Assembly: GCA_025055455.1 (NCBI GenBank)
Contig: JANWXD010000001.1
Coordinates: 62,001 to 126,000 of the forward strand
Reading direction: 5' to 3'
Length of the DNA stretch: 64,000 nucleotides
Origin: Bryobacteraceae bacterium
Lineage (GTDB): Bacteria > Acidobacteriota > Terriglobia > Bryobacterales > Bryobacteraceae
Made by a program: the position numbers and the translations under genes. Below, piece by piece: positions 32,675 through 45,159 of this stretch. The notes beneath the pieces are model-generated. The model was given only the letters and a program-made list of their open reading frames with translations. It made no database searches and was not told the DNA's origin. Each line of letters begins with the position of its first letter. Position 1 is the first letter of the stretch.

Positions 32675-33775
32675 TCATGACGACAATGCCGCTTGCAGCA
32701 TAGCGCGCGCATAAGCGACGTTGTACACTTCGCCCACGTAGCCGCCGCCTCCCGGGTAAAACGGCGAGAACCCAGGCTGCTCCCGGTCGGCATCGAGCGC
32801 CCGCGGGTGTTCCGGATAAATCCAACGCGGGTATTTCAGACGGACCAGCTCCCGCATCACCTCGAACATGTTCACCTCGCCTTCGTCCGGAAACACCTCC
32901 GTGTACTGCTCGTACGGCTTCCGCACACGAACGTTGCGGAAATGCGCGTGATTGATCCGATCGCGCGAGCCGAAGTACCGGCAGACTTCGATCGGGTCCT
33001 CTCCCAGCTCCCGCGTCACGCCGCAGTCGTACGTGATGCCGTTGGCCGGGCTGGGGACAATCTCGATCAAGCGCTTCCACCCGGCCACCGTGGCCATGAT
33101 CTGGCCCGAGCCGCGACTGATGGCCGGAGGCGGGTCATTGGGGTGCAGCGCCAAGCGCACGCCTGCCTCTTCGGCCACGGGCACTACCGCTTTGAGAAAG
33201 TAGGTCAGATTGGCCCACATCTCTTCCAAGGTGTAAGCTCGGTGACCGGGTAACGGCGGAAGATGCTTGACGCGCTCGTAGTCGAAGGCGGTCATGCCCG
33301 CTCCCGCACGCCCGAGCTCTTCGTAATACCCCTCCACCAGGCGATGAGCGTAGAAGTTGTACTCGATCACGGGCAGCCCCACCCGCCCGGCGGCCCGAAT
33401 GGACTGCTGCACCTTTTCGATTTCCTCATCGCGGCCGGGACGCCCGTAGATCGTGTTCGGGAAACCGCTGATCATCATGTTACAGATCGTCAGCCCCGCC
33501 GCCTTGAAGCGCTCCATGCGCGCCCGCAGCTCCGCTTCTTGCCAGGGGATGGGAGGGCCGCTCATCAGCACGTAATCCACGCCGATCTGCTTGATGCGCC
33601 GCATCCCGGCCGCGTCCAGGTTCGGTGAAACCCCGAGACACAACTTCGGCGTCTCGGCCCCCTCCAAGACCGGCCACGGGCGGCCGGCCCCCGAAGCCAC
33701 GGCCGGGGCGAGCGCGGCAGCGCACGCGGCCTGCATCAGTTTTCTCCGAGAGACTTGCGCACCCGAATGGTTCAT
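32675..33775 (-). CDS. mannonate-dehydratase-like TIM-barrel protein with Tat signal
   Basis: After a twin-arginine signal (VSRRKLMQAACAAALAPAVASG) comes a TIM barrel similar to UxuA: ALHPNDPPP in place of the UxuA HPDDPP metal site, NGITYDCG, a RINHAHFRNV strand (UxuA HLRNV) and a late EHPRALDADRE block. UxuA removes water from D-mannonate in hexuronate breakdown, normally in the cytoplasm; here the signal suggests a periplasmic enzyme, and the substrate may differ. ATG at 33775 starts at the Tat signal; the longer frame to 33913 is not needed. About 194 nt separate it from the truncated receptor on the other strand. Confidence 0.82.
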   Translation of the reverse strand: MNHSGAQVSRRKLMQAACAAALAPAVASGAGRPWPVLEGAETPKLCLGVSPNLDAAGMRRIKQIGVDYVLMSGPPIPWQEAELRARMERFKAAGLTICNMMISGFPNTIYGRPGRDEEIEKVQQSIRAAGRVGLPVIEYNFYAHRLVEGYYEELGRAGAGMTAFDYERVKHLPPLPGHRAYTLEEMWANLTYFLKAVVPVAEEAGVRLALHPNDPPPAISRGSGQIMATVAGWKRLIEIVPSPANGITYDCGVTRELGEDPIEVCRYFGSRDRINHAHFRNVRVRKPYEQYTEVFPDEGEVNMFEVMRELVRLKYPRWIYPEHPRALDADREQPGFSPFYPGGGGYVGEVYNVAYARAMLQAALSS

Positions 33776-33969
33776 GGCATCGCATCTTATCATGGGAGAG
33801 CGCCCCCGGAGATCTTGATCCGCCTGACCCCAGGACCCTGGCGCCGCAAGGTCACATGGCGACGCGGCGATCCTGCGGGTTGAAACCCCTCCGCGTTCGC
33901 GCCGCCTCAGCACGGTGCATGGGTTTTCGACCGTAGCTCCATCGCCGATTTGTTGCTCGCCTATACAGC

Positions 33970-35502
33970 GTGCAGTTTCCGCTCTATGAAATCCACAACC
34001 GGCTGCTCAACGGCTTCGACTTCCACTCGGTGCAACCGTTTAGCGACGCGGCTCTGGCTCGCTGGAGGGAGCTAGCGGCGGCGGATCCTACCTTTCCTAG
34101 ACCTCCCCAAGCAATCCGCGGCGGCCCGCGCTACGCAGGCGTTGGCGGCAGCCCACGTCGCGTCTACGAATGGGATTGGACCAACGTCCAGCCGCGTTTC
34201 GGCGTCGCCTGGAACTTTATGTCCAAGAGCGTCATGCGCGGTGGCTTCGGTATCTTCCACCGCACGGCGACGCAAGGAAACTTGAGCACCGGATTCAACC
34301 TCCAAACGCCCTACATCCATTCGCTCGATGCCGGGCTCACCCCGAGCAGCGGCCTGACCGGGCCCTATTCGCTCGAGAATCCGTTTCCGCAAGGGGTCGT
34401 GCGCCCGTTGGGAAACAAGCTCGGGATTTCCACGAACGTCGGCAGCGGGATTGAATTCGACGCCCGGAAACGCCCCATCCCCCGCACGTTCCAGTGGTCC
34501 TACACGCTCGAGCGCGAGCTCCCCTGGAACATGGTTTTGGAGGTCTCCTACGTCGGCAGCCTGACCAATAAGGAGCCCCGCACCACGCAGCTGTCCGATA
34601 TGAGTCGGGAACACTACGACCGTGCCCAGACGGATCCCGGCTTCTACCAGGCGCGCATTCCGAACCCGTGGTTCGGGATCCTCTCGCCGGCCACCCCGCT
34701 CGGGGCTTCTTCCACCATCGCCCGCCACGACTTGCTGCGCCGCATCCCGCAGTTCAACAGCGTCCGTAACTTCATCAACCCTTGGGGCCGCGTCTGGTAC
34801 CACGGTCTTCAGACCCGCTTCGAGCGACGCATGCTGGGCGAGCGCTCCCGAGTGGGCGCTGTGACGTGGGTGCTCGCCTACACCTGGTCCAAGCAGATGG
34901 AGCGCGTCTGGCTCGACGAACACACCTTCGAATGGCGCGGTCCGATCTCGCAGCTGACCGACATTGACCGGCCCCACAACCTCGCCTTTGCGGGCGTCTG
35001 GGACTTGCCGTTCGGTCGCGGCCGGGCGTTCCTCCGCGACATGGGCAAGGCCGGCCAGTTGCTCCTCGGCGGCTGGACCACCAACGTCAACTTCATCTAC
35101 CAGTCGGGCGTCCCCTTGGGCGCTTGGCGGGGGTGGGAGTTCCTCTGCGGAGACCCAACGGCCGTGGCGCGCACGGAAACCCAGTGGTTCTTCAATGACC
35201 GCTCGCGCTTCAGCCAGTGCTGGCGCCAGTTGCGCCCCTTCGAGTACGTGGTGCTGCCGAGCCGCTTCCACCAAATCCGCAGCCATGCCGCCCCGCAGAT
35301 TGACCTGATGGTCTCCAAGAAATTCGACGTCAGCGAGCGCTACCAGATCGAGTTCCGGGGCGAGGCGTTCAACGCTTTCAACACGCCTCTGCGCGGCGAC
35401 GCGCCTTCGACCAACCCGGCTGGGGCTGATTTCAGCATCTTGCCCGTGGCTCAGCTCAACTTCCCGCGCAACATCCAATTGGGCGTGCGCGTGCGGTTCT
35501 GA
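33970..35502 (+). pseudogene. TonB-dependent receptor, 5'-truncated (C-terminal barrel only)
   Basis: The 510-residue frame corresponds to the second half of a carboxypeptidase-regulatory-like TonB receptor: it opens inside the barrel (VQFPLYEIHNRLLNGFDF aligns with the segment after the usual LxLRYE strand) and ends with the terminal Phe (GVRVRF). The signal peptide, regulatory domain and plug, about 600 residues, are missing; an in-frame TAG lies 24-30 nt upstream and only 194 nt separate it from the next gene. A GTG at 33970 is the first usable codon but no export signal follows, so the product could not reach the outer membrane. Truncation by deletion is the simplest reading. Confidence 0.85.
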
Positions 35503-36114: not shown

Positions 36115-37383
36115 CTACTTCGGCGGCCGGACGATGTGATCGATCCCTTCGCGCACGCCGTAGGTCGGCCCCAACTGGCGGTAATCCGTCGCCGCCCGGC
36201 TGTTCCAATCCCAAACGACGCGCCCTTCCCGCAGCGTCATCTCGCAAAACAAGCGGTGCCGGCCGCTCAAGCGCCCGTCGTGCGCGTCGCGAAAGCCGAA
36301 ATCGCCCTCCATCAAGCGCCAGACTGCAATATCCGCCACCGCGCCTTCGCTCAGGTGGCCCAGCTCCGGCCGCTGAATCATCTGCGCCGGGTTCCACGTC
36401 GTCCGCAGGATCACTTCCGCGAGCGGCATACCCATGGCCAGGAATTTGGACATCGTCGTCGGCAGATCCATCATGCCGGCGTTCATGCTGCCCGTGTGCA
36501 GGTCTGTCGAGATCGAGTCCGGATAAAACCCCTGCTCGATGGCGGGCACGGCGTTGCGAAAGGCAAAACTGCCGCCTCCGTGGCCGACGTCGAACTTCAC
36601 CCCGCGCTGGCGCGCTCGGAACAAGTATTCGTACAGCCGTCCTTTCTCGTCCACCCAAGGGACCGGCGCCCGGAAGCAATGCGTGCTGATGTCGCCCGGA
36701 CGCAGCCGCTCGGTCACCAGCCGCCAGTAGGGCCGCTCGGGCAAAAAGTAGCCGAAATCCACCATCACCGGAATGCCCGCCAGCTTGCCCGCCTCGACCG
36801 CCGCATCCACCGAGCGCCAGTCCGGCAGCCGGTAGTGCGCCGATTTGACCCCCACCACGACGTCTCTGTGTTTCTTTGCCAGGCGCGCCACCTCCTGCGG
36901 GTTGAAGCCGGACTGCTCCACCTCGTCGGTGATCATGCCGTACGGAGCGATGTTGATCATCGCCAGCACGCGCGTCCGCGTCCGGTCTGCCACCGTATAG
37001 CGCAAGGTCTCGAAGTTCTTCCAGCCGGCCGTCCCGGCGTCCACCATGGTGGTGGTTCCGGTGCGGAAGCTGAAATCGTCGGCGCGCACGCTCATGTCGC
37101 CGGCCCAGACGTCGGGAAGCCCATAGGTGGCAAACAGGTGGGTGTGAATGTCCACCAAGCCGGGCGTCACGTAGAGGCCACTCACGTCCACTGCCAGGCG
37201 TGCCTCCGAGGCGGCGATCCGTGGCCGCACCGCCGCAACTTTGCCGTCCCGAATGGCCACGTCGGCCACACGGTCCACTCCGTTGCGCGGATCGATCACG
37301 TGCCCGCCCCGGAGAACGAGATCGTAGGGTTGCGCCCAGATCCCGCAAGTAAGCGCTGCTAGCGTCAGGCAAGCTCGCTTCAT
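36115..37383 (-). CDS. secreted amidohydrolase-superfamily metalloenzyme
   Basis: A signal peptide ([14 protein letters not shown]) is followed by a composite-domain amidohydrolase: [18 protein letters not shown], the metal motif H80-T-H82 (GLVDIHTHL), a GVKSAHY segment where the bridging Lys would lie, [18 protein letters not shown] and DLHTGS with the barrel-end Asp. It resembles the dihydroorotase/D-aminoacylase-like deacetylases. The start at 37383 overlaps the oxidoreductase stop as ATGA. It is the last gene of the unit that starts with the MLE-type enolase, and with its signal it should act in the periplasm. Substrate unknown. Confidence 0.85.
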
Positions 37384-38598
37384 GACAGCACAATCCGCTC
37401 CCGCCGCGCGTCCCACACCGCGTACCTCCTTGTACGCCAGGACCGGACCCCCATCTCGCAGGCCACCACGCCATAGTAGCCCAGCTGGCAGTCACACTTG
37501 AGCGGTTCATTCATTCGGATCGCGTTGAGCAGGTTGCGGTGGTGCCACTCGATATCCTCGCCGCCCGTTTTCTGGTGCACGATCTCCTTCGCCTCGCTGG
37601 CATACAGCCGCTGCGGCCGGATGACGAAGCCGGTCCGGGTGAACCACAGCGTCGCTTTATGTCCGCGCAGCACGTGGTCGACGGGCGTGTCGTTGGCCAT
37701 AGAGGACACCAGCAACACGGTGGGGCCGCCCGGATAGTCCAGCATGAAGTTGAACGTGTCCGGCACCTCGGCCGGCGACTGCCGAAAGTGCCACTTCCCA
37801 CCGGCGCCGACGCCGCGCTCTGGGAATGTGAGTCCGAGCGCCTTGATGATGCGTGTGACGCGGTGGATGAACAAATCGCTGGCGATGCCGCTCGAATAGT
37901 CCCAATACCGCCGCCAGTGAAAGAAGCGCTCCGGGTCCCAGGGTCGCTTCGGCGCGGGCCCTAGCCAGGCGTTCCAGTCCAGATTGATCCCCGGCCGGGC
38001 GTCGGCATCGAGCGGCCCGGTCCAGAAATCGTGCCGGTAGTTGCGCGAGTAATCGATCTGCGCCAGAACTACGCTGCCCAGCACCCCCTCTTTCACGTAG
38101 CGATAGGGCTGTCTCGTAAGAGTCGTCCGACATGCCCTGCACACCCACCTGCATCTTCACGCCGGTCGAGCGGATCTTCGCCACCACTTTCTTGGCCTCC
38201 TCGGCGGTGCGCGTCATGGGTTTTTCGCAGTAGATGTGCTTGCCCGCGTCGGCCGCGTCTACGGTCATGCGATAGTGCCAGTGCTCGGGTGTGGCAATGA
38301 GGACCAACTCTACGTCCGGGCGCGCCAGCAGGCGGCGGTAGTCCCGGAAGGCGGGCGCCCCGGTCAGCTGGGCGGCCGCCTCCGCCCGTTTGTCGAAGAC
38401 GTCGCACACCGCGCCGATCTCGACATTGTCGGACTGGCGCATTTTCAAAAGGGTCCGGATGTGGGCCATGCCCATGCCGCCGCAGCCGATCACGCCGACG
38501 CGAATGCGCTCGTTCGCTCCGGAAATCTGGGCGTAGGCGCGCGCCGTCAAGGTTGCTGCTGCCGCGCGCGCAAAATCTCTGCGGCTCAGGTGCGCCAT
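37380..38598 (-). pseudogene. Gfo/Idh/MocA oxidoreductase with Tat signal, single frameshift
   Basis: The first part (from 38598) has a Tat signal ([21 protein letters not shown]), a Rossmann motif ([17 protein letters not shown]), TPEHWHYRM and the catalytic-region CEKPMTRT. It loses the frame after MSDDSYETA near 38110-38112, where one extra C is needed to explain the jump to [22 protein letters not shown] in the next frame, which carries on to the C-terminal domain and the stop at 37380. Repaired length is about 405 aa, the usual size. The intact second half, the ATGA overlap with the amidohydrolase and the lack of other damage argue for a recent mutation or a sequencing error. NAD(P)-dependent sugar or polyol oxidation is the family role. 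Confidence 0.82.
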
Positions 38599-38629
38599 GC
38601 CGCCATTGTAGCGATTGGAAGAACGGAGC

Positions 38630-39544
38630 TCAGTTGGACGGCAGGCCGGAAGATATCGTCACGCGGTAGCGCAGCCGCAACGGCTTGGGCGGGACCAGCC
38701 GGTAGGTTTCCAGGCCCGGATAGTTCACCCCGAGAAAGCCATAGTGCCGCAGGCACCAGCCGTTGGGGAAGCCGGGATTCCCTGGGTCGATTTCGATGCG
38801 CAGGGTCGCAGGACGCCCCTCGTAGAACGCTTCCAGTTGGGCCCAGCGGTGGGCCACCATGTCCGTGTCCTGGGTCTGGACCCCCGCGTCGGTGACGATC
38901 CGCGTTTCGCTCCGCGGGGCGAAGCGAACCGCGAAGCCGCCATAACCCTTCCGATCCAGTTGCTCGCCGGCGATCTCCACCGGCGCTCCCAGCGCCTCGA
39001 AAGCCAGGTGGAACTCCAGCACCCGGGCGTTGCCGGCGGTGCGGTGAGCGACGATCTCCACTTCCTCACGCACCACCTGACGGTCCTCTACGAACCAGCC
39101 GTTCTCGACACCGAGCCGCGCCGTCTCCACCCCGGTCTCTCGCTGGGTCCAACGCAGGAATTTCTGCCGGAGGCCCCGGATGGTCCACAGGTCATAGGTC
39201 CGGCCCCCGACCCGGACTACGGGCCAGCTCCAAAAGATCCCCCGGTGATGATAGTGATCCTGCGGAAAGTCATCCGTGACAACGGTTCCGTCCGGCGCCC
39301 AAACAGGATGTAGGTAGCAGCAGCGGCGGCGGTTCTCCGGAACGCCTTCTTTGAGAATCATCCCGTGGTTGTAGGCGAAGACCGGCCGCCCATTCTCCAG
39401 GAGCTCGATCCGCTGTGGCGCCTCCCGAAACGAAAACGGGCTCGCCGCCGGCAAGGTGGCGGCTTGAAACAGCGCGGCACCGCCGCACACCAAGGGCACG
39501 ACAACTTTCCATTTTCGAGGCCGTGTGCGACAACCGGAGGTCAC
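38630..39544 (-). CDS. DUF6807 (PmoA-like) exported protein
   Basis: The family signature DHYHHRG (96-102, [13 protein letters not shown]) and the surrounding strands are present. DUF6807/PmoA proteins are widespread in polysaccharide- and glycan-degrading clusters of planctomycetes and acidobacteria; the activity is not established. A signal-like segment ([21 protein letters not shown]) precedes the domain. GTG at 39544 starts three nt after the receptor stop, so coupling is likely. The oxidoreductase follows after 31 nt. Confidence 0.8.
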
Positions 39545-39547
39545 AAA

Positions 39548-42500
39548 TCAGAAATAGAACTTCGCTCCTAGCTGCACCTTCCGCGAAGCGCTCACCACGC
39601 TGTCCCGCACGCGTCCGAAGATCGACGAAGTCACCACGGCGGTCGGAAAGCCGAACGTGGGTGTGTTGGTCAGGTTGGTGAAGTCGCCGCGCAGCTCCAA
39701 ATAGACATTCTCGCGCCCCAGTCCGATGCGCTTCAGGACCGCCAAGTCCACGTTGAACGAGCCCGGCCCTTCCAGGAAATTCCGCCCGGTATTGCCGAAC
39801 TGTCCGGGCGCCGGGATGGAGAACTTAGCTCGCTCCGCCTCGTTCAGATACCACTTGAGACCGGAGCCCGGGTCATCGAAAAGCTGACCCAAGCTGCGCG
39901 TGCAACCGCTACAGTCGGCCGTGGACTGGTTGACGCTGCCGAAGGTGTTCGAGCCCGAATAGACCGTAAACGGCCGGCCGCTCATCAGCCGCAAAAATCC
40001 GGTGACCTGCCACCCTCCAAGGATCTTGTCGGCCGCCGCGGGCCAACCCGAGCCCCACCTGCGACCCCGTCCGAAGGGTAGCTCCCAGGACCAATTGGAT
40101 TGCACCACGTGCGTGCGGTCGAAATCCGAACGGGCATAATTCAGCCTGCGGTTGAAAATGTCGAACGGGGTCGAAGAAGCGGCCTGAGCGCTGCCCGTAG
40201 CGATGACGGTGAAGGCGGGATCATACGAGCGCGTATCCAGCGACTTCGCCCACGTGTAACTGACCTGGTAACTCAGGCCGCCGCTGAACCGCCGCTCCAC
40301 CTGGATTTCCAGCGCGTGGTAGGTCGAGAAATCATTCGAGTCGATCACTCGCATCCCGCCGCTGAACTGCGGGAACGGAATGAAGAAAAAGGGCCCCATG
40401 CCGGAAAGATCCGTCACCGAGCGCGGTGGGCTCCCTTGGAGACGCGTGGCGATGGCCGAGGCCAGGCCCGCCACGGAATTCAGTTGAAGCTGCGAGGCGA
40501 ACAATCGCCGCACCATCCGCGAACCCGTCTCGCCGGGCTGGAGCCGCGAGTCGGCCGCCAGCAATCGGTTCATCAAGTCCGACTCGCCGCCCGCCTGGAC
40601 CACTCGGAACGCTTCCAAGAAACCGTTGCGGAAAATCTCGGCCTGGTTAGCGTCGTAGGCTCCGAACAGATGATACGCCCTGCGGCCGATGTAGGCGATG
40701 TCCAGCACGGTGCGCGGCGCAATCTCGCGCTGAATGGAAAAACTCCACATGTGGGTGGTCGGCATCTTGAACTGCGGGTCCACCACCGTGATCAGATTGT
40801 TCGAAAAGGGAGCCGGCTGGGCCAGCTCCGAGGGCCGCACGGCCGGGGGCGTCAGACGCGGCAAGTTGGCCAGGCGCCCGCCCGCCTGTCCGAAACTGGT
40901 GTCGTTGATCCCCTGCGTCTGGCCCGGCAGCGTCTGAAACACAGCCGAGGACAGCACGAACGTGTTCAGCCGGTCATAGGCGATGCGGTAATTCGCCCGG
41001 ATCGAGGTCTTCCCCGTGCCAAAGGGGTCCCAGGCCAGCCCCACCGTGGGACCCAAGTTGTCCCAAGCGTCCTCGAACAATTTGCCCCGGACCCATCGCA
41101 GCGTCGTGGTCGGCCGCGCGCCGGCCTGCACGAGTTGGTCCGGCCGCGTGATCCGTTCCTCGGGATTGCGCGGGGCCAGCTTCATCTCCCACCGCAGACC
41201 CAAATCCAGAGTCAGATTGCGACGCAGCTTCCAGGTGTCGTGAATGTAGAAGTCGTACTCCGGATAGCGCGCGTCGAAGAAATACAGGCCCTCGATGAAC
41301 CGGTCCCCCCTGGAAGGGAAGCCGCGCGTGATGTTGCCCACGCGCCCCAGCAGGAAATTGATGTGGGACTGAAAGGCTGGCCGGTCGAACGCGACGTTGA
41401 GGTCCGGCGGCAAACCAAAGGTGGCCGGATCCACCGTGTTGACCGCCGTCGAAAAGTTCACCGCCTGCGTGGCGTTGGCCCCCGCAATCGAGCCGCGTAC
41501 GTCCACGTGTTTCTGGAAGCGCAGGTTGGCGCCGAGCTTGAGGGCATGCGAGCCCCGGAACCAGGAGAAGTTCTCGACGAACTGCCAGGTGTGGAGCCGC
41601 CGCTTGTTGCCGAAGCTGTATTCGGCCACCACCGCCACGGGCGCCACCAGCGTCACCTTGCTCAAGTCCGCCGTCGGGATCTGGAAGTCGAACGTGAAGC
41701 GGTTGAAGCCGAACACCATCTCGTTGGTGATGTTCGGTTGCGGGTTCCACCGCCAGTTCACCGCCAGGTTGCGCGGCGACCGCCGCGTGTCCACCACACA
41801 AGGGGTACCGGGAAAGATGGCCAGCCCGCCGTTGACGCTGTCGCAGAGCGTATCCTGCTGGCCCCACGCCATCCGGGCGTAGAACATGTTGCGTTCGCTG
41901 AAGATGTGGTCGATCTTGAACACCGCATCGTACTGCTTCTCTTTCTCCGGCGCCGTGAAGGTGTACAGCGCGGTATTCAATCCGTCGCCGCCGGTGAAGT
42001 TGTTCGGCAGCGGCTGCTGATTCACCAGTTCTTGGATCGTGCGATCCAAGCCCAGCCGTTGCGGGTCGCTGGCCGCGACATTGTAAGTGCCGATCGAGAG
42101 ACCCGGCAAAGGATTACCGGCAGCGTCCACCGAGGCACCCGGTACGCCGGCCGGCTGGTTCCGCCCGCCTCTCACGTAGCGCAGAATGCCGCGCCGCGCC
42201 TCGGCCGTGTACACGGTGCGGTTCACGATCTGCGTCTGGAGCGCCCGCAACAACTGGAGGTTCCCGAAGAAGAACGTCTTGTTGCGCACGACCGGGCCGC
42301 CCAGGCTGCCGCCCCAGATGTGCTGCACGAACTGCCGCTTGCCCACGCGGTTCAGATTGTTCTCCCACTCGTTGGCATTCAGTCGGGGCGTGCGGTAGAA
42401 CCAGAAGCCGTCGCCGTGGAATTCGTTGGACCCCGAGCGCGTCACCATGCTCACCTGACCGCCGCTGTTGCGTCCGTAATCCGCCGTGAAGCTCGAGGTC

Positions 42501-43144
42501 AACACGCGAAACTCCGCCAGCGAGTCGGGATTCGTCCGCAGCGGAGAAAAGTTCGATCCGCCGGCGCTCGTCTCGTTAATGTCGATTCCATCGAGCGTGA
42601 AATTCCAGGCCCGGTCCCGCGCCCCGTGCACGTGCACGCCGCCGCCGGTGTTGGCCCCGGAGACGACGCCCGGCTGCAGCAGCACCAACGTCAGCGGATT
42701 CCGACCCCGAACGCCGACGATGGGCAAATTCCGGATCATCTCGCCGGTGAACAGGTTGCCGATGTTGCCCGAGGTCGAAGTTTGCACCAGCTCGAAGGCC
42801 CCGCTCACCTCGATCTGCTCGGTGACCGCCCCGACCTCCAGGGTGACGTTCACCGTCGCCGGCTGCCCGATGCTCACTTGAGTGCCGCGCCCGACGAACT
42901 TCTTGAAGCCCGGCGCTTCCACCGTCACCGTGTAGCGGCCGGGCTGGACCGCCTCGAACACGTAGGTCCCCGTTTCAGACGTTCGGGTCGTAAACGAGAC
43001 CTGCGTCCGCTCGTTGAGCAACTGGACGGTCGCTCCCGGCACGGCCGCGCCGCTCGGATCCTGCACCACTCCGAGCACCCGCGACGTGGTCCCCTGTGCC
43101 AACGCGCCGGCCGTCGCCAGCAATAAGGCCATCAACAATCGCAT
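39548..43144 (-). CDS. TonB-dependent receptor of the exported catabolic unit
   Basis: Signal peptide (LLMALLLATAGALAQ), carboxypeptidase-regulatory-like domain (about 20-105: VLGVVQDPSGAAVPGATV), plug (about 115-260, GVHVHGARDRAWNFTLDGID is inside) and a long barrel ending LGAKFYF. 1,198 aa. ATG at 43144 has GGGAGG eight bases before it; the frame extending to 44563 is only an antisense-frame shadow of the enolase gene. It has its own promoter-like sequence and begins the stretch receptor-DUF6807-oxidoreductase-amidohydrolase, so it probably imports the compound these enzymes process. Confidence 0.92.
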   Translation of the reverse strand: MRLLMALLLATAGALAQGTTSRVLGVVQDPSGAAVPGATVQLLNERTQVSFTTRTSETGTYVFEAVQPGRYTVTVEAPGFKKFVGRGTQVSIGQPATVNVTLEVGAVTEQIEVSGAFELVQTSTSGNIGNLFTGEMIRNLPIVGVRGRNPLTLVLLQPGVVSGANTGGGVHVHGARDRAWNFTLDGIDINETSAGGSNFSPLRTNPDSLAEFRVLTSSFTADYGRNSGGQVSMVTRSGSNEFHGDGFWFYRTPRLNANEWENNLNRVGKRQFVQHIWGGSLGGPVVRNKTFFFGNLQLLRALQTQIVNRTVYTAEARRGILRYVRGGRNQPAGVPGASVDAAGNPLPGLSIGTYNVAASDPQRLGLDRTIQELVNQQPLPNNFTGGDGLNTALYTFTAPEKEKQYDAVFKIDHIFSERNMFYARMAWGQQDTLCDSVNGGLAIFPGTPCVVDTRRSPRNLAVNWRWNPQPNITNEMVFGFNRFTFDFQIPTADLSKVTLVAPVAVVAEYSFGNKRRLHTWQFVENFSWFRGSHALKLGANLRFQKHVDVRGSIAGANATQAVNFSTAVNTVDPATFGLPPDLNVAFDRPAFQSHINFLLGRVGNITRGFPSRGDRFIEGLYFFDARYPEYDFYIHDTWKLRRNLTLDLGLRWEMKLAPRNPEERITRPDQLVQAGARPTTTLRWVRGKLFEDAWDNLGPTVGLAWDPFGTGKTSIRANYRIAYDRLNTFVLSSAVFQTLPGQTQGINDTSFGQAGGRLANLPRLTPPAVRPSELAQPAPFSNNLITVVDPQFKMPTTHMWSFSIQREIAPRTVLDIAYIGRRAYHLFGAYDANQAEIFRNGFLEAFRVVQAGGESDLMNRLLAADSRLQPGETGSRMVRRLFASQLQLNSVAGLASAIATRLQGSPPRSVTDLSGMGPFFFIPFPQFSGGMRVIDSNDFSTYHALEIQVERRFSGGLSYQVSYTWAKSLDTRSYDPAFTVIATGSAQAASSTPFDIFNRRLNYARSDFDRTHVVQSNWSWELPFGRGRRWGSGWPAAADKILGGWQVTGFLRLMSGRPFTVYSGSNTFGSVNQSTADCSGCTRSLGQLFDDPGSGLKWYLNEAERAKFSIPAPGQFGNTGRNFLEGPGSFNVDLAVLKRIGLGRENVYLELRGDFTNLTNTPTFGFPTAVVTSSIFGRVRDSVVSASRKVQLGAKFYF

Positions 43145-43195
43145 GGACCCACCTCCCCGCCGCCACGGCGATCGGTTTCGCCGCAGCCTCCCTGC

Positions 43196-43225
43196 AATAT
43201 ACAGCCGGCGTCTTTTCGACGGCAA
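43196..43225 (-). promoter_or_regulatory. candidate promoter for the TonB receptor
   Basis: TTGCCG (43225-43220) and TATATT (43201-43196) on the minus strand, 18-bp spacer, 95-nt gap between the enolase stop and the receptor start; the leader would be about 45 nt and carries the GGGAGG ribosome-binding site. Confidence 0.6.
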
Positions 43226-43239
43226 CCCCGGACCGCGCT

Positions 43240-44400
43240 TTAGGTGAGCCCCCCGCGAACTTTGGCCTCGTCCACCTCCACGCCCAAGCCCGGACCCAGG
43301 GGCACCTCGATGGCGCCATCGCGCGCCACCAGCGGCGTTTTCAGACAGCTTCCCCGGAGAAACAGCGGCCCGGTGAGTGCCGCCGGGAATTTGAGCTGGT
43401 AGGCGGCGTAGAGCGGGAGCGAAGCCGCCAGCGACACGTCGGGGTCCGTCAAACCGCTGCCCAGAAACAGCAAGCCCGCATCCAGGACGATCTCGATCTG
43501 CCGCCGCGCATCCCATAGGCCCGCCGTCCGTGCCGGCTTCATCGCCACGCCGTCGAGGAGGCCCAGCTTGATGAACTCCACCAGCTCCGTGGACGAAACC
43601 ACTCCTTCGTCCATCAAGATAGGCAGCGCACCCAGCTTCCTCAGCTCGCGATAACCCGTCAGCCGGTTGGCGGGAAGCGGCTGCTCCAATACATTGACCC
43701 CTACATCGGCCAATTTCGGGATCACCTCCAACGCCGTGGCCAGGTCGTAGCCGCCGTTGGCGTCGGCCCACAAAAACGCTTCCGGGGCCAGCTTGCGGAC
43801 GCGGCGGCACAGTTCTAGGTCGTATTTCGGATCCGGCGCCACTTTCACGTTGAAGTGGCGGTAACCTCGCGCTCGCCCTTCTTCGACCAGCTGCTCGGTC
43901 TCCTCGAGCGAGGCCGGATTCACGGTCCAGCTCAGGGTGATGCGCTCGAGCGGCTTGCGCCCCCAGCGCCGGGGCAGGCTCTCGCCGTGGAGCCTTCCGG
44001 CCAGATCGTGCAGCGCCAAGTCGATGCCGGCTTTGGCAATCGGCATGCCCGTGGAAAACGACGGGGCAATCGCCCGGTTCATCCGCGCGTGCGCGCCGGC
44101 GATGTCCAGCGGGTCGTGCCCCAAGAGCGCCGGTCCCAAGTATCGCTCGATCGCCGACAGCACGGACTCCGGCGTCTCGTAGCTCCAGGTCGGAATCGGC
44201 ACGCACTGGCCCCAGCCGACCGCCCCATCGTCGCACGTCACCTTGACAAACACGGTGGGTCGTTCCGGCTTCGTGAAAAACTTGAAATGGGCCGTGACCG
44301 GATAGCTGACGGGGAACGCTTCGATGCGGGCGATGCGGCGCGCGGCGCCGTAGGCGATCGCGGCAGCGCCTCCCAATTCCAGAAACCTGCGGCGCGTCAT
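43240..44400 (-). CDS. enolase-superfamily protein, MLE subgroup, with Tat-like signal
   Basis: An N-terminal TRRRFLELGGAAAIAYGAA resembles a short Tat signal; the enolase domain follows at residue 23. Catalytic features: K186 (FNVKVAP, second Lys of the usual KxK, first is N), metal ligands D213 (WADANGG), E239 (VLEQPLP) and D264 (LMDEG), and K288 (AMKPAR) on the other barrel face. A Lys/Lys pair marks the muconate-lactonising/epimerase subgroup, rather than the His-Asp pair of sugar-acid dehydratases. The protein is complete. It follows rsmE by 15 nt, with GGGGAAG before the ATG, and precedes the TonB receptor unit. Substrate unknown. Confidence 0.87.
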   Translation of the reverse strand: MTRRRFLELGGAAAIAYGAARRIARIEAFPVSYPVTAHFKFFTKPERPTVFVKVTCDDGAVGWGQCVPIPTWSYETPESVLSAIERYLGPALLGHDPLDIAGAHARMNRAIAPSFSTGMPIAKAGIDLALHDLAGRLHGESLPRRWGRKPLERITLSWTVNPASLEETEQLVEEGRARGYRHFNVKVAPDPKYDLELCRRVRKLAPEAFLWADANGGYDLATALEVIPKLADVGVNVLEQPLPANRLTGYRELRKLGALPILMDEGVVSSTELVEFIKLGLLDGVAMKPARTAGLWDARRQIEIVLDAGLLFLGSGLTDPDVSLAASLPLYAAYQLKFPAALTGPLFLRGSCLKTPLVARDGAIEVPLGPGLGVEVDEAKVRGGLT

Positions 44401-44415
44401 AAAATCTTCCCCATT

Positions 44416-45159
44416 TTACTGGAGCCGTTCCGCGGCGGCCCATGCGTTGGCCAGAACCGCCAGGGCCGCGATCGCCGCGGTTTCGGTGCGCATGATCAGC
44501 GGCCCGAGCGAGACCGCCACCCAGTCTGCTTTCCGGGCTGCCTCGCGCTCGGTCTCGGTCCACCCTCCCTCCGGCCCCACCAAGAGGGCGACCGAGTCCG
44601 CTGGAAGGCGCCGATTCGGCGGCGGCAGTGCGGCCAACAGCGGCGGCAGGTTTTTCGCCTCATCGAGCACGTAGCGGTACGGGCCAGACCAGGCCAGGGC
44701 CTCCCGCAGCGACTGGGGCCACTCTACTTCGGGCGGCCGCTGCCGCCGCGCCTGCTGGCTGCTTTCGAGCACGATCCGCCGCCAGCGCTCGAGCCGCTTC
44801 GGCGCGGCCAGCCGGAGGCCCTTCTGGCTCCGCACCGTCTCGATGGGAATCACAGATTCCACACCCAACTCCGTCGCCTTTTCGAGCATCCACTCGAACC
44901 GGTCGAACTTGATGAGGGCCACCAGCAGGTGGAGGCGCACCGGCAGCGGTTGGTCCTCGAGCCGCTCCAGCACCCGAAGCTCGACTCGGGCCGGGCCGAA
45001 GGCCACGATTTCCGCCAGGTAAACGGCTCGGTTGTCGGAGATCTCGTAGCGCTGGCCCCGCTCGGCGCGGAGCACGCGCCGCAGATGCTCGGCCGCCTCG
45101 CCCCGCAGCTCCGCCCGCCCCTGCCGGATCTCCTCCACAAAGAACCGCCGCCGCGCCAT
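44416..45159 (-). CDS. rsmE: 16S rRNA m3U1498 methyltransferase RsmE
   Basis: RsmE methylates N3 of U1498 in 16S rRNA using S-adenosylmethionine. The SPOUT knot motifs LLVGPEGGWTETE and SLGPLIMRTETAAIAAL are intact, and the N-terminal PUA-like part starts MARRRFFVEE. 247 aa. Its ATG is only 22 bp from the divergent ruvA ATG, so each promoter must reach into the other gene. Confidence 0.96.
   Translation of the reverse strand: MARRRFFVEEIRQGRAELRGEAAEHLRRVLRAERGQRYEISDNRAVYLAEIVAFGPARVELRVLERLEDQPLPVRLHLLVALIKFDRFEWMLEKATELGVESVIPIETVRSQKGLRLAAPKRLERWRRIVLESSQQARRQRPPEVEWPQSLREALAWSGPYRYVLDEAKNLPPLLAALPPPNRRLPADSVALLVGPEGGWTETEREAARKADWVAVSLGPLIMRTETAAIAALAVLANAWAAAERLQ

Follow-up and report, generated by a model that had tools for sequence, protein, structure and literature searches.

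Our analysis supports the idea that a cluster of five genes in the genome of a soil-type Bryobacteraceae bacterium joins two modules: a conserved pair formed by an enolase-superfamily enzyme and a DUF6807 protein, and a second pair formed by a MocA oxidoreductase and an amidohydrolase, in which the MocA gene is frameshifted. The stretch of DNA analysed (64,000 nucleotides, hereafter the window) comes from an assembly of 145 contigs and 3.95 Mb, and the nearest relatives of its enolase in the ortholog search belong to the Bryobacterales (Acidobacteriota). The five genes lie on the minus strand in the order enolase (43240-44400), outer-membrane receptor (39548-43144), DUF6807 (38630-39544), MocA (37380-38598) and amidohydrolase (36115-37383); this order, the gaps of 95, 3 and 31 nt and the final 4-nt overlap, all described in an earlier note made from the sequence, were confirmed. 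The housekeeping gene rsmE (16S rRNA methyltransferase, 44416-45159, same strand), which is outside the cassette, ends 15 nt before the start codon of the enolase, so the upstream boundary of the unit is not obvious. A scan of genes close to the unit revealed no SusD, glycoside hydrolase or regulator, the components that would accompany a receptor in a polysaccharide utilisation locus. Two further reading frames were observed: one at 32675-33913 (minus strand), 2.2 kb downstream of the amidohydrolase, encodes a TIM-barrel protein of the UxuA-like/AP-endonuclease kind, whose N-terminal stretch is Tat-like (SRRKLMQAACAAALAPAVASG), and the other, at 33970-35502 (plus strand), is of the receptor type, matches the barrel model from 393 to 838 only (its C-terminal half) and looks truncated.

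The enolase, whose N-terminus is Tat-like (MTRRRFLELGGAAAIAYGAA), was classified with Pfam and NCBIfam models (MR_MLE, 138.8 bits in Pfam), PDB alignments and orthologs. The alignment with the solved muconate/chloromuconate cycloisomerases 1nu5 and 3i4k revealed a common K/D/E/D/K active site, comprising the second Lys of the KxK motif, the D/E/D metal ligands and the opposite Lys, which bears out the Lys/Lys, MLE-type assignment previously proposed. In contrast to these cycloisomerases, the enolase of the window is predicted to be exported, scores 159.9 with the corresponding model TIGR02534 (cut-off 334.95), and has an Asn at the first Lys of KxK, while the catalytic second Lys is kept. The amidohydrolase is of the COG3964 type (amidohydrolase/deacetylase model NF006689, 404.6 bits vs. 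a cut-off of 371), and its HxH, K, H, H and D residues align with the metal site of PDB 2ogj, from which it differs in bearing a Sec-type signal. The COG3964 amidohydrolases include Atu3266.

Regarding MocA, both domains of a Gfo/Idh/MocA enzyme were found in different frames: the NAD-binding N-terminal part lies in one frame and the C-terminal part in the next, with the break at about 38106-38110. Within the class, the search recovered the window protein only from residue 164 onward, and none of the other 39 MocA matches listed (one of them partial) has an internal stop. The MocA step has probably been lost in this Bryobacteraceae genome, the gene then being a recent pseudogene, unless the break arose in the assembly. 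The best PDB matches of MocA were the 8tdf/8tdh dehydrogenases and DgpA, with which it shares the NAD-binding domain and an EKP motif; it differs from them in its N-terminal Tat-like signal, its frameshift and its scores below the NCBIfam cut-offs, since its two parts reach 62.8 and 38.2 bits with the glycoside 3-dehydrogenase model (NF058561, BT_2158), which has a cut-off of 750.

The DUF6807 protein belongs to its family (PF14100, 153.1 bits vs. a gathering cut-off of 27), and its predicted structure (pLDDT 93) is a galactose-mutarotase-like beta-sandwich. No meaningful match to this sequence was found in the PDB; the solved structures nearest to the model were galactose mutarotases and sandwich domains from other carbohydrate-active proteins (glycosidases and lyases), with weak similarity (Foldseek E of about 1e-4, TM 0.3-0.4). 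In the phylogenetic tree, the DUF6807 of the window groups with the enolase-linked copies of L032, L034, L103 and L106, with a support of 90/89 that is below the strong mark. Among the other loci, DUF6807 is fused to the trehalose-utilisation domain ThuA in two (L140 and L148, one Verrucomicrobial and one Acidobacterial) and doubled in two Verrucomicrobial ones; in L159 the enolase is immediately preceded by a melibiase-type GH36 gene, and in L207 a GH67 gene is near a DUF6807 locus. Additionally, in three loci (L119, L123 and L124) the DUF6807 protein is extended by a further domain of about 400-500 aa, which is unannotated and unmatched in Pfam.

A search of the literature on DUF6807/PF14100 retrieved one relevant operon, in the Verrucomicrobial cosmid Lac161, which restores growth on lactose; there, ORF8 (enolase superfamily) adjoins ORF9 (PF14100) as in the window, a likeness taken from the published description, and on either side of this uncharacterised pair is a protein that has beta-galactosidase activity, while, unlike in the window, receptor, MocA and amidohydrolase are unmentioned (PMC5342196). 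The earlier note knew of no described pathway with this set; no description of the whole cassette was found in the literature either, and an enolase–PF14100 pair is mentioned in this 2017 paper. Literature searches for enolases that are exported, and for MocA enzymes located in the periplasm, yielded nothing useful. Taken together, the mutarotase-like fold, the fusion to ThuA, the glycosidase neighbours and the pair in the lactose cosmid suggest that DUF6807 has a role related to carbohydrates, pointing to no particular one.

The four enzymes carry predicted export signals, as had been proposed, and these are conserved in orthologs: Sec-type signals in DUF6807 and the amidohydrolase, and Tat-like RR motifs in the enolase and MocA. 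An N-terminal hydrophobic stretch is present in all 21 amidohydrolase orthologs, and the RR motif in 10 of 10 MocA orthologs. In most enolase orthologs, the enzyme domain is preceded by an RR motif and then an uncharged stretch; about a seventh have no recognisable signal, and a group from Verrucomicrobiota and Omnitrophota begins directly at the enzyme domain. When the orthologs were sorted by an automatic rule, DUF6807 was directly downstream of 50/62 enolases with the motif vs. 3/11 without it (Fisher p of about 0.0009, for loci that are not independent and that in some cases share a genome or come from close ones, and with a few rows mislabelled: L104 and L115 have the motif and L156 does not). 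The hydrophobic regions of the signals of the window enolase and MocA are weak, and for this reason their export by Tat is graded as likely. The conserved signal sequences support an extracytoplasmic location of the four enzymes, and this part of the proposed pathway outside the cytoplasm is retained; for uptake by the receptor and the order of the reactions, the evidence goes no further than the adjacency of the genes.

The relationship among these genes in other genomes is pairwise. DUF6807 adjoins the enolase in 18/18 orthologs of the class (about 60-72% identity), in none of which is a receptor placed between them. In the GTDB set, which contains 73 enolase orthologs with at least 1 kb of downstream sequence, DUF6807 is downstream of the enolase in 53, from Acidobacteriota, Verrucomicrobiota, Planctomycetota and Armatimonadota, and a MocA gene is directly upstream in 33. 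These upstream MocA proteins are not orthologs of the one in the window (about 25-34% identity); an ortholog of them (57%) is encoded on another contig of this genome, right behind another receptor (L213:4866-9762). The orthologs of the window MocA pair with the amidohydrolase in four loci (L082, L086, L088 and L093), and in a fifth (L085) with about 0.5 kb between the two genes, and they pair with another DUF6807 in four (L190, L203, L204 and L205). In L105, the genes of the amidohydrolase and the enolase overlap, and the enolase orthologs of L101 and L104 stand alone. The four enzymes are thus tied by adjacency across genomes as enolase–DUF6807, DUF6807–MocA, MocA–amidohydrolase and enolase–amidohydrolase. 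Gene order in relatives is non-random for enolase–DUF6807, but MocA and the amidohydrolase usually lie apart from this pair or form one of their own, and the five-gene set was present in no other genome examined.

The receptor, a putative TonB-dependent one (CarboxypepD_reg and OMP_b-brl_4 domains), matches the barrel model PF25183 with 538 bits, and Plug with 21.7, below the cut-off of 23.9. Its orthologs (39-67% identity) occur in 31 other genomes of the class, and in the neighbourhoods covered only L190 contains any of the enzymes, at 6 kb; the recurrent neighbours are few and housekeeping-like. The receptor was therefore rejected as a conserved member of the cassette. Its position between the enolase and DUF6807, noted earlier, is correct, and among the genomes examined this arrangement was seen only in this one; a linkage to the enzymes is absent in relatives. 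Since the receptor does not travel with the enzymes and MocA is broken here, the unit, which had been called complete, is better described as a local patchwork. Moreover, the genome contains more than 50 receptor matches (74 to the receptor barrel family, some being fragments of one gene) and 33 MocA-type matches, so the adjacency of these two families means little by itself.

The explanation that we prefer, at about an even chance, is that two modules of exported sugar-processing enzymes, enolase–DUF6807 (MocA–enolase–DUF6807 in many relatives) and MocA–amidohydrolase, have been joined in this lineage specifically, with a receptor gene separating the enolase from DUF6807. The most likely site of action of the enzymes is the periplasm, and their most likely substrate a sugar or sugar-acid derivative. 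In the proposed scheme, MocA would be exported folded with bound NAD(P) and oxidise a hydroxyl, DUF6807 may bind or isomerise the sugar ring, the enolase would take the proton next to a carboxylate, leading to epimerisation, elimination or lactone chemistry, and the amidohydrolase could cleave an ester, amide or lactone. More tentatively, MocA–enolase–DUF6807 may be a widespread uncharacterised exported cassette, with an extracytoplasmic enolase and with DUF6807 as a new family of carbohydrate enzymes.

It is unlikely that the five genes form a functional periplasmic pathway with its own receptor, a reading in which the frameshift would come from the assembly. The tight spacing on one strand, the export signals of the four enzymes, their pairwise linkage elsewhere and the other receptor that precedes the ortholog of the enolase-linked MocA agree with this possibility; however, the location of the receptor orthologs, away from these enzymes except in one locus 6 kb apart, and the absence of the set from the other genomes examined argue against it. 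We consider similarly improbable a 3-keto-glycoside route in which MocA would produce a 3-keto sugar to be handled by DUF6807 (and, in other genomes, ThuA), and an elimination would cleave the linkage. The chemistry of the enolase superfamily normally requires a carboxylate, MocA is far under the 3-dehydrogenase cut-offs, and no ThuA is present in the window, although the best PDB matches of MocA, the DUF6807–ThuA fusion and the ThuA-like genes near 12/80 enolase loci favour this route, and thuAB has been linked to 3-keto disaccharides (PMC4765114). The least probable explanation is that unrelated catabolic genes came together by chance in a genome where such genes abound. The abundance of receptor and MocA-type genes and the unlinked receptor orthologs favour it, but it stands for the receptor only and is disfavoured for the enzymes, which are recurrently adjacent across genomes and phyla.

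The enolase–DUF6807 pair emerges as conserved in poorly cultured bacteria of soil and water from several phyla. An exported enzyme of the enolase superfamily, if true, would be unusual, and DUF6807, which papers label as methane oxygenase/PmoA, gains a testable role in carbohydrate metabolism.
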